Assembly (NCBI GenBank): GCA_013214905.1
Contig: JABSRV010000007.1
Coordinates: forward strand, 24,220-57,657
Origin: Psychrobium sp.
GTDB taxonomy: Bacteria; Pseudomonadota; Gammaproteobacteria; Enterobacterales; Psychrobiaceae
Direction: 5' to 3'
DNA length: 33,438 nucleotides
The notes under the pieces: generated by a model
What the model was told of the DNA's origin: nothing
Database searches by the model: none
The model's input: the letters and a program-made list of their open reading frames with translations, nothing else
Shown: positions 1,160 through 4,670 of the stretch, piece after piece
Layout of the letters: each line of letters begins with the position of its first letter
Numbering within the stretch: the stretch's first letter is position 1
Translations under genes and position numbers: made by a program

Positions 1160-1501
1160 CTACTTAGATTTACAGAGCTTGACCATACGTAAATTGTAAG
1201 ACGTCATATAACGTACAGTTTCTTTGCGTAACTCTCGTTGTGACGCTGACTTAATCACATCGCCAACATCTTTCATAAATTTGATACCACAACGTTGTTT
1301 GCCCACCGCCATTTCTTCATTATTTAAACCAGGGATCAACACCCTGCGCCCAGACGTCGCATACAAACGATAATCCTGAGCGGCGACAGCCTTAGTTAAC
1401 TCGTTATCTAATGTATTATCGAAAAGCTGCTGCGATGTCTGTTCGGTGGTATTACACCCTCCTAATAAGATGACCGCTAACACTAATAATTTATGCTTCA
1501 T
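1160..1501 (-). CDS. Small hypothetical lipoprotein
   Basis: Encodes 113 residues with a short basic start (MKHK), a hydrophobic stretch and a lipobox LLGGC ending at about residue 16, so it should be lipidated at that cysteine by signal peptidase II processing. The mature part has two further cysteines, one in GKQRCGIKF and one near the end in VKLCKSK, and no domain I recognise. A good ribosome site, gaggga, lies 9 bases before the ATG. Only 38 bp separate the start from the palindromic element at 1540-1807, so the promoter probably lies partly or wholly inside that element. Function is unknown; localisation is the only confident statement. Confidence 0.75.
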   Translation of the reverse strand: MKHKLLVLAVILLGGCNTTEQTSQQLFDNTLDNELTKAVAAQDYRLYATSGRRVLIPGLNNEEMAVGKQRCGIKFMKDVGDVIKSASQRELRKETVRYMTSYNLRMVKLCKSK

Positions 1502-1539
1502 GACGAAATTTCCCTCTATTAATACGCGATAGCGTGTAA

Positions 1540-1807
1540 TATACCCAAGTTACTTGAAAATGCGAGTTTCAGAGTTCGGGTAGGATGCCAGAACAAGGCA
1601 TGACTTGTAAGCAATGGTTATTCCCTTACTCAGAGTCATAACGCCGTGCTGGCTTTCTACCCGAACTCCCGCAGGGCAAGGCGATAAGCGACCAACTACG
1701 GCGTTATAAAACCTTGATGTAGAGTGACTAGAACGGCGGTCTTATGCCTTGTATTTGGCACGCTTCTCGACTTGCTGAATTCTGCATTTCCAGGTAGCTT
1801 GGGTATA
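1540..1807. mobile_element. MITE-like element with long imperfect terminal inverted repeats, inserted in the protease 3' end
   Basis: The left end tatacccaag (1540-1549) is matched exactly by its inverse cttgggtata (1798-1807). Similarity continues for about 60 bp into each arm (tac-tg-aaatgc, then aag/gcat blocks). Two nested perfect inverted pairs lie inside: gagttcgggtag (1572-1583) with ctacccgaactc (1657-1668), and taacgccgt (1639-1647) with acggcgtta (1698-1706). No transposase is encoded, so it would depend on an enzyme elsewhere. The element occupies the space between the lipoprotein start and the protease, and its right arm supplies the last 21 codons and the stop of the protease gene. 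Calling it mobile is inference from structure. Confidence 0.7.
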
Positions 1808-4345
1808 TATGCTGCCTAACAGTAATAACCAAAGCGATGCACCAGCCGATGACGATTTTTTAGTTTGCTTTTTTGCAATCACCGTAATGCTAACAATGCC
1901 TTTACTTTGACCGTCAAGACTATCGGACACCGTATACTCAATGGTTTCTACCCCTGAAAAATCAGCGTGTGCTTGATATACCAATTGATTATTTGCTATT
2001 TTCACACTGCCAGCACCAAGATAATTAAATGCTTGAAGGGTTAAACTTCCAGCCTCATCCACGTCACTATCATTACTTAACACATCAATGGTCACCGCTG
2101 CACTTCCTTGGTTTATCGAAATACTGTCTGGCGCCGCTAACGGTAAATCATTGACCGACAACACGGTAATTTTAACCGTGAATACGTCACTTTCAATGCC
2201 ATTGTTTACACCAATAACTCGCGCACGTATAAGACCGTGAAAATTAGCGTCTGGCACTATGGTAGAGTCACCTTGTATTTGATAGTTTGCCCCCTCTAAT
2301 ACTTTCATTGATTTAGCCGCAACATCGAGATAAGTAAACATTTCAGGGGTGATTTTCAAACTAATATCTTCGTCCATCAATAGGTTATTAACTAAACTGG
2401 TAATAACAGGTTTACCGCCTTGAGCGATAGAAAAGTCACCGTTGTTAATCGCAAAGAATATGTTCCCAAAACAACTGACTTTAACTCTTGCCGTTGCGGT
2501 AATTGATGAAGGCACCGTCACCGTAAAACTACCTGTGTTTGCGACTTGACTGGCTAAGGTGACAGGGAAACTATTACCTGAGTCGGTCGATAACGTTATA
2601 TCAACAGATTGACAGGAAATAGGCGCCTGATCGGTGCCTGCTACTTGCCAGCGTATAATCGCTGTTTTATCGCCCCAATCGTTCTGATTTGTCGGTTCAA
2701 GCACCGAAAATGCCAACTCGGTTTTAACCACGTTAACTTTCATGGCGTCGTAACTTACGCCGCCTTTGTTGTCACGAGCAATCAATCTGAAATTTAATTC
2801 CCGCGTCGTATTAGCATAAACCTCACCGATGCTTATCTTTGCGGCTAATACGTCTTGTAACTTAGGCAAGATACGAGTCGGCGTTTTAGTTGGTTGCCAT
2901 GCCCTAAATAGCGGGCGCTTACCATCATCGACCATAGTGCTAGCGCTAGACGATGGACCAAGATCCATTTGTTGCCAGTCATAACTTAACTCATCACCAT
3001 TGGCATCGGTCGCACTGCCCGTTAATATAAAGGGAGTATTAGCAGGAATGATATAATCAGCGCCAGCATTAACGGTTGGTATCGCATTGTCACTTGCTGA
3101 AACAACACCACAACTACTACCTAGCTCTGAAGAAACAAAGGCAGATATTTGATCCATTGAATGACTGTGAAAAAACGGCTGAGAATTCATCTGCAAATTC
3201 TGTTGACCACAAATACCCGCATACCCCATGATGGTTGATGCACTGCCTGGCTCAAAGCTACTTGGCGCTTCTCGATTGCCGCTACAAGCACCTTCGGTGC
3301 CATTAAATGTATGTTCTGCACCAAATTGATGGCCAATTTCATGTGCTACATAATCGATATAAAAACTGTCGTTGCTAGGGTTTGGATCGCCAGTAACACC
3401 ATCGCCTTTTAATTGAGCATCACAAACGACTCCGAGACTAGCCAAACCACCACCACCGGTACCCACTATATGACCTATATCATAATTTTGACTGCCTATA
3501 ACACCATCGATAATACCGGTATTAATTTCCCCGTCATTATCACTATTATCGTAGGGGTCGCTTACAATATTGGTATAAATAATCGCATCGTTGTTAGCCA
3601 CCAATTGCAGGCTAATGTTTAAATCACGTTCATAAACGTCGTTAATACGATTAAGCATGCTAGTGATTGCTGCTAGGCCATTTTCCTTGCTGCCGCCGTG
3701 ATACTGCGTAAATTCAGCATTAGCGGCTATGGCGATGCGATAAGTGATTCGCTGGGCACTCAGCTGTTTTGTTGCACCGCGCGCATATTTTTTCAATAGT
3801 GGTTGTTGCAAACGCAATTTTGGCGCTAGTCGTAAGGAGCCTTTACTTCCTGCTAGCGCAACAGCATCACGTTTATAATAACTGATGTAATAATCTGTTT
3901 TTTCTCGATAAATGGGATCTATAAACACAGTATCGCCAGCTAAATTAAATACCCCATGAAAACCTTGTGGCGTGATATCAAATCGCCCACGATTGCTCTC
4001 CTTGTCAATTTGATAACCCGTAAATGTTTTAATCATTGGGTAACGCTGCGCTAACTCATCGGCCATGATAAGCGATGGCACTAATCTAAAGTCGGCGTAA
4101 GAGCCGTTGGGCAGTGGCAAACTAATGACGACAGACTGATCGGTATTAACCAAGGTTTCATTTAATGAAGCGATATTAGCTCGGATCTTAAAGCCCGCGT
4201 TAGCGCGTAAGAAAACGGCCTTGTTATTATCTATGGGTGCCAATACCTGTTGCCATTCATTAAAACGACTTTGTTGCTCGGCAATAGCTTGCCAACTGAT
4301 AACACAGCACAAACTTGCCGTTACAAATGATAATAAACGCTTCAT
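1742..4345 (-). CDS. Secreted reprolysin-like zinc metalloprotease with GlyGly-CTERM-like tail
   Basis: An 867-residue protein from the ATG at 4345, preceded by aaggg; an upstream TTG would add 20 residues and spoil the signal peptide. Order of parts: signal peptide (about 1-22, ending AIA), propeptide-like region, metalloprotease domain with HEIGHQFGAEH at 335-345 (three zinc histidines and the catalytic glutamate) and a downstream Met-turn STIMGYAGICG, then PKD/Ig-like segments and a cadherin-like repeat (VLSNDSDVDEAGSLTL). Near the end SSSAGASLWLLLLGS resembles the GlyGly-CTERM sorting signal handled by rhombosortase and the type II secretion pathway. The last 21 residues, from YTQATWK on, are encoded by the inserted repeat at 1540-1807; they are basic (K, R), which may replace the usual arginine-rich end. 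The substrate is unknown. Confidence 0.9.
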   Translation of the reverse strand: MKRLLSFVTASLCCVISWQAIAEQQSRFNEWQQVLAPIDNNKAVFLRANAGFKIRANIASLNETLVNTDQSVVISLPLPNGSYADFRLVPSLIMADELAQRYPMIKTFTGYQIDKESNRGRFDITPQGFHGVFNLAGDTVFIDPIYREKTDYYISYYKRDAVALAGSKGSLRLAPKLRLQQPLLKKYARGATKQLSAQRITYRIAIAANAEFTQYHGGSKENGLAAITSMLNRINDVYERDLNISLQLVANNDAIIYTNIVSDPYDNSDNDGEINTGIIDGVIGSQNYDIGHIVGTGGGGLASLGVVCDAQLKGDGVTGDPNPSNDSFYIDYVAHEIGHQFGAEHTFNGTEGACSGNREAPSSFEPGSASTIMGYAGICGQQNLQMNSQPFFHSHSMDQISAFVSSELGSSCGVVSASDNAIPTVNAGADYIIPANTPFILTGSATDANGDELSYDWQQMDLGPSSSASTMVDDGKRPLFRAWQPTKTPTRILPKLQDVLAAKISIGEVYANTTRELNFRLIARDNKGGVSYDAMKVNVVKTELAFSVLEPTNQNDWGDKTAIIRWQVAGTDQAPISCQSVDITLSTDSGNSFPVTLASQVANTGSFTVTVPSSITATARVKVSCFGNIFFAINNGDFSIAQGGKPVITSLVNNLLMDEDISLKITPEMFTYLDVAAKSMKVLEGANYQIQGDSTIVPDANFHGLIRARVIGVNNGIESDVFTVKITVLSVNDLPLAAPDSISINQGSAAVTIDVLSNDSDVDEAGSLTLQAFNYLGAGSVKIANNQLVYQAHADFSGVETIEYTVSDSLDGQSKGIVSITVIAKKQTKKSSSAGASLWLLLLGSIYTQATWKCRIQQVEKRAKYKA

Positions 4346-4394
4346 CCAATACCCTTGATATGTAAATTTTATGTTAATAATAGAAATAACCTTA

Positions 4395-4670
4395 TCATAC
4401 GCCATTCAAATTACTATTTAATTGAACCTCACATTGCGTTACCGACATTTTCTTTAAATAAGCTATTAAATTATCTAAACGCCAGGTGCGTAATTCATCA
4501 GCTCGGCCGTGGCGGATCACGTAAGCAATTTGTTGTTGCGGGTTAATGCCAACCAAAGAAAACTTCAACGGCGAGTTTTCGCTCTCCTGCGCAATAAATT
4601 TTGTGATAGACTGTGTTTCTACCAAACGACAAAACTCCCCTTCTTTAACTCTATAAAAAACTACAGCCAT
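4395..4670 (-). CDS. Small hypothetical protein
   Basis: Encodes 91 residues beginning MAVVFYRVKEGEF. The ATG at 4670 is preceded by ggtgga at a plausible distance; a TTG four codons earlier is less likely. There is no signal peptide or membrane segment. The centre reads as alternating strands (FSLVGINPQQQIAYVIRHG) followed by a helix (RTWRLDNLIAYLKKM) and a final strand, which suggests a small alpha/beta fold. I do not recognise the family. It ends 50 bp before the protease start and could be co-transcribed with it. It is divergent from the VWA operon, with a perfect 17-bp palindrome between them. Confidence 0.65.
   Translation of the reverse strand: MAVVFYRVKEGEFCRLVETQSITKFIAQESENSPLKFSLVGINPQQQIAYVIRHGRADELRTWRLDNLIAYLKKMSVTQCEVQLNSNLNGV

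Follow-up and report, generated by a model that had tools for sequence, protein, structure and literature searches.

A MITE-like palindromic element supplies the C-terminal end of a GlyGly-CTERM-like metalloprotease in Psychrobium, most likely as a tolerated swap

In the marine bacterium Psychrobium sp., the gene for a secreted metalloprotease ends inside a palindrome, which raises the question of where its present C-terminus came from and whether the borrowed end serves as a protein-sorting signal. A preliminary description of the locus had regarded it as a clear case of a miniature element exapted as a sorting end. Here we examine the locus within a 33,438-nt stretch of contig JABSRV010000007.1 (the window; coordinates without a further label are positions in it).

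The protease gene and the palindromic element

The protease contains a Reprolysin_4 match at residues 221-412 (1.8e-32) and a Big_9/cadherin-like match at residues 752-841 (1e-15) in Pfam, and orthologues are present in Colwellia, Pseudoalteromonas and congeners. As had been described, its minus-strand frame (Table 1) runs into the palindrome; the open reading frame ends in KKSSSAGASLWLLLLGSIYTQATWKCRIQQVEKRAKYKA, and the stop codon falls inside the palindrome. The C-terminus of the protein is KKSSSAGASLWLLLLGSI-YTQATWKCRIQQVEKRAKYKA, where the residues after the dash are encoded by the palindrome. The element accounts for 62 coding nt and the stop, that is, 20 whole codons and one codon shared across the border, in agreement with the 21 codons and stop counted before. 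The tail that it encodes is basic, also as claimed, with six Lys or Arg residues against a single acidic one (Glu).

The 26 copies aligned with their flanks share no sequence outside the borders given in Table 1. The palindromic element proposed earlier is therefore real, while its extent is corrected from 1540-1807 (268 bp) to 266 bp. Its fold is more stable than any of 200 shuffles, with z scores of -8.0 as DNA and -9.1 as coding-strand RNA. Most copies fall between 264 and 269 bp. The element is short, multicopy and dispersed, has terminal inverted repeats, carries no transposase and lies in unrelated flanks, as MITEs do. Among the loci retrieved, we found no longer element sharing the ATACCCAAG and CTTGGGTAT ends, the largest measuring 451 bp. 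No Rfam family matched the element; all weak matches were below threshold and lay on the neighbouring terminator hairpin. All six frames of the element are closed, and the tails produced by entering it have a median of 20 residues.

Table 1. Features at the 3' end of the protease gene, in window coordinates.
Feature	Position	Strand	Basis
Gene for an 887-aa secreted metalloprotease with M12B reprolysin-like and Big_9 domains and a GlyGly-CTERM-like end	1742-4405	-	Pfam and orthologues
Portion of the sorting-like end encoded by the host, KKSSSAGASLWLLLLGSI (motif, hydrophobic segment)	1807-1861	-	Sequence; compared with orthologue ends (SSGG, hydrophobic segment, R-rich tail)
Element-encoded protease end, (Y)TQATWKCRIQQVEKRAKYKA and stop	1742-1806	-	Sequence, element borders
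MITE-like palindromic mobile element, 266 bp, ends ATACCCAAG / CTTGGGTAT	1541-1806		26-copy alignment, fold z, further copies in this genome and in the genus
Probable remnant of the former protease 3' end (YYTLSRINRGKFRHEA and stop), beyond the element, with an 11-nt overlap with the start of the next gene	1491-1540	-	No-duplication rule from two other loci; inference
Small lipoprotein-like gene, 113 aa, beginning MKHKLLVLAVILLGGCN	1160-1501	-	Directly follows the protease gene in orthologues; 240 nt away here

The preliminary description had suggested that the element would recur in the genome, and it does. A full sister copy in the same genome (G000:C35:37124-37399) differs at 6 of 266 bp (97.7% identity), and about ten further sites carry partial or more diverged copies. 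The element is carried by six of the nine genomes of the genus (a search at family level gave these nine congeners only), with up to 24 matches in one genome. The genus holds dozens of copies, full or partial, and identity is ~76-82% in five congeners. The metagenome-assembled genome (MAG) Alteromonadaceae DT_4 has a version at ~70-74% identity, and one Pseudoalteromonas contig has a copy of 266 bp; none was found in plasmid records, phage records or viral contigs.

Copies examined elsewhere are mostly intergenic, several of them no more than ~30 nt from a stop codon, as expected if only the least harmful insertions survive. Copies that end other genes had likewise been envisaged; among ~45 copies with flanks, gene-ending copies are convincing only for the window protease and for nnrS of DT_4, a broken gene. 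The fusion of protease and element is seen in the source species only. Two open reading frames of 91 and 87 aa, at copies L035 and L038, are further possible element-ended genes. In Pseudoalteromonas sp. NBT06-2 (L043, 667-3736), an element copy lies ~38 nt past the stop of another long gene, which ends in SSSGSIYILCIFMAFVTRLR and has a similar sorting-like end, possibly by chance since retrieval favoured such pairs.

Insertion mode and the displaced former end

Scanning boundary shifts and lengths across the 26 copies, we found that no target site duplication of 2-8 bp stands out. In DT_4, nnrS is split by an element copy (L042, JABSOI010000072.1, 2354-3094 and beyond) and has further stops downstream of the split, making it a pseudogene. 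When exactly the 264-bp element is removed, the resulting protein stretch aligns without gaps with seven intact NnrS homologues. A copy in genome G007 (L044) has an empty site in G001, where 600 nt align gapless with 600 nt at 84% identity and two bases adjacent to the junction differ. The gapless nnrS alignment together with the G001 site indicates, judged from these two loci, that insertion of the element neither adds nor removes host bases on balance. Around the junction of another empty site (L057/L123), the sequence has diverged too far to be read, and copy L078 was dropped as an empty-site case, its flank conservation being too short.

Most elements moved by DDE transposases duplicate their target, and some transposon classes make no target duplication. 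A single-strand (HUH-type) or other duplication-free mechanism is possible for this family, which occurs in Colwellia-like and related bacteria. We use the label MITE-like because the target duplication counted among the features of a MITE was not found.

The protease orthologues from ten other genomes are without the element. Their ends, compared in two congeners, DT_4, Colwellia and Pseudoalteromonas luteoviolacea, run from a Ser/Gly motif through 13-15 hydrophobic residues to a short Arg/Lys tail, and the YTQATWKC tail is in none of the orthologues compared. Both observations agree with the expectation, put forward in the preliminary description, that this tail came with the element and that element-free orthologues end in basic residues. 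The DT_4 orthologue (L024, 5310-5451) has an unusually long 21-residue tail, RPNSYLLYKPGNNAFHLKGIK, after its hydrophobic segment, with no element copy inside.

In the orthologues, the protease stop falls from 19 nt past to 2 nt before the start of the lipoprotein-like gene, and this tightly coupled pair is now 240 nt apart. Under the no-duplication rule, the former protease end would read GSIYYTLSRINRGKFRHEA, with a stop overlapping the lipoprotein ATG by 11 nt. This overlap is within the orthologue range (about -19 to +2 nt) and therefore fits YYTLSRINRGKFRHEA as the former end, even though, by our estimate, a random frame would perhaps give a stop in this range one time in five. The empty site at the protease locus is thereby reconstructed from other loci and not from a same-species allele without the element. 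The former basic end was probably displaced and now lies just past the element, and the protease apparently had one basic tail swapped for another.

Sorting signal and consequences of the swap

A comparison for such an end is VesB of Vibrio cholerae, which rhombosortase cuts after the second Gly and which loses its activity when the serine at the final motif position is changed to alanine (VesB-RssP: PMC3237569, PMC6219818, PMC11389362). VesB that lacks its last five residues, basic ones included, is no longer retained at the cell surface (PMC6219818), in line with the earlier statement that signals of this kind need basic residues. The genome that holds the window encodes a rhombosortase (G000:C435:8748-9200, 166 bits against a cut-off of 84) and five other GlyGly-CTERM proteins scoring above cut-off.

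The three-part end of this system is clear in the orthologues of the window protease. The window protease itself has SAG, 17 residues and KCRIQQVEKRAKYKA, with weak hydrophobicity. Its motif is SAGA and not SGGS; a GGA at the motif position is also found in the G007 orthologue and in another GlyGly protein of the same genome. The element fills the latter half of the hydrophobic segment with five mostly polar residues, YTQAT, and the mean hydropathy of the whole segment is 1.01, below every orthologue (1.72-2.41). TIGR03501 does not match the window tail, and the orthologue tails score at most 12.6 bits, under the 15.5 cut-off. The assignment to the GlyGly-CTERM type in the preliminary description thus holds as far as the orthologue ends resemble that class, while membership of the window protease, which we call GlyGly-CTERM-like, is putative given the sub-threshold scores. 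In comparison with VesB-RssP, it differs in its SAGA motif, half-replaced hydrophobic part, element-derived basic end and lack of a match to the model.

How readily could such a basic tail arise by chance? Entering the 26 copies from both ends in three frames gives tails of which 44% reach a net charge of at least +2 and 35% one of at least +3, and with the latter share the basic tail needs no special explanation. Compared with the C35 sister copy, the tail differs by one base, which is nonsynonymous (I/T), and shows no sign of selection or tuning in its sequence. We consider it probable, with good confidence, that a recent, duplication-free insertion of the MITE-like element in the sorting-like end was a tolerated swap rather than an adaptation. 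The element would have entered the signal recently, at the point where the hydrophobic segment met the basic tail, parting the protease gene from the lipoprotein gene that it once abutted. Since all frames of the element close quickly, the protein came to end with ~21 element-encoded residues, basic by chance. The protease domain is unaffected, and the new end may plausibly still serve as a weak stop-transfer segment with a basic terminus, so that the protease may be either processed less efficiently by rhombosortase or set free as a soluble protein. As far as the sequence goes, processing could have been kept, weakened or lost, and all three fit.

A tentative alternative, to which we give less than even chances, is that the insertion destroyed the signal and that the protease is fully secreted or degraded. 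The polar YTQAT stretch and the drift of the motif to SAGA point in this direction, as do the release of VesB without its basic end (PMC6219818) and the nnrS gene broken by a sister insertion in DT_4. Against it, the 887-aa frame is otherwise intact and the tail is still basic.

We regard it as unlikely that the element arm was retained as a working basic sorting tail, by which the protease is cut by rhombosortase, anchored to the surface and kept by selection. The six Lys/Arg residues, the usable length of the hydrophobic segment and tail, the rhombosortase in the same genome and the need for basic residues in the surface retention of VesB (PMC6219818) are consistent with such a role. A single species carries the fusion, however, and the frequency of strongly charged entries, the hydrophobic segment weaker than in all orthologues, the lack of recognition by the TIGR03501 model and the lack of a sequence sign of selection argue against it. 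The preliminary description was therefore right that the element replaced a GlyGly-CTERM-like protease end with a basic tail, while its step to a clear case of exaptation is not borne out. That two contigs were wrongly joined at a repeated palindrome is very improbable, even in a draft assembly of 447 contigs in a genus where many contigs end within element copies, as both flanks are syntenic: one holds the protease, and the other the lipoprotein gene found behind it in orthologues.

Relation to known mini-elements and neighbouring sequences

Proteins whose C-termini, in some cases basic, come from mini-elements are already known; the new details here are that a sorting signal was hit and that the former tail was probably displaced. 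QMITE1 and QMITE2 of Coxiella burnetii are inverted-repeat mini-elements of 150-400 bp in ~50 copies or more, and QMITE1 overlaps gene 3' ends, giving the last residues and the stop, with some basic ends as in pntAA and CBU_2058 (PMC5896051). In pntAA, the end is AQTHRRQLKGAR and the pI rises from 6.93 to 8.79 (PMC5896051). The window element resembles them as an inverted-repeat mini-element that supplies a C-terminus and stop, a likeness judged from their described features. In contrast, QMITEs leave direct repeats of 2-11 bp, none being detectable for the window element family, and the part replaced here is a sorting signal.

The ERIC-like RU-1 and RU-2 of enterobacteria are likewise fused to gene 3' ends, for example giving the amidase ECA3499 a new C-terminus, but RU adds residues past the conserved domain (PMC2759123), whereas the window element replaces the final part of a sorting signal. 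Rickettsia palindromic elements (RPEs) are also palindromic repeats, lying in frame within protein genes (PMC10969869). RPEs keep an open frame and a conserved peptide, while the window element closes all frames and is mostly intergenic. No description of the element family was found in the literature searched, which is weak evidence of novelty. The locus illustrates cleanly how a mini-element can exchange one end of a protein-sorting signal for another, with what was probably the original end preserved alongside, and the protease offers a natural experiment on how strictly rhombosortase signals require a basic tail.

Two other sequences lie close to the locus. A perfect 15+15 palindrome with A and T runs at 1114-1143, resembling a bidirectional terminator hairpin, sits between an mnmE-like GTPase gene and the lipoprotein gene. 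Just past the GTPase gene, at 952-1112, is a second, different multicopy sequence of ~160 bp with the ends ATACCAA / TTGGTAT, which matches about 15-20 places in this genome (75-95% identity).
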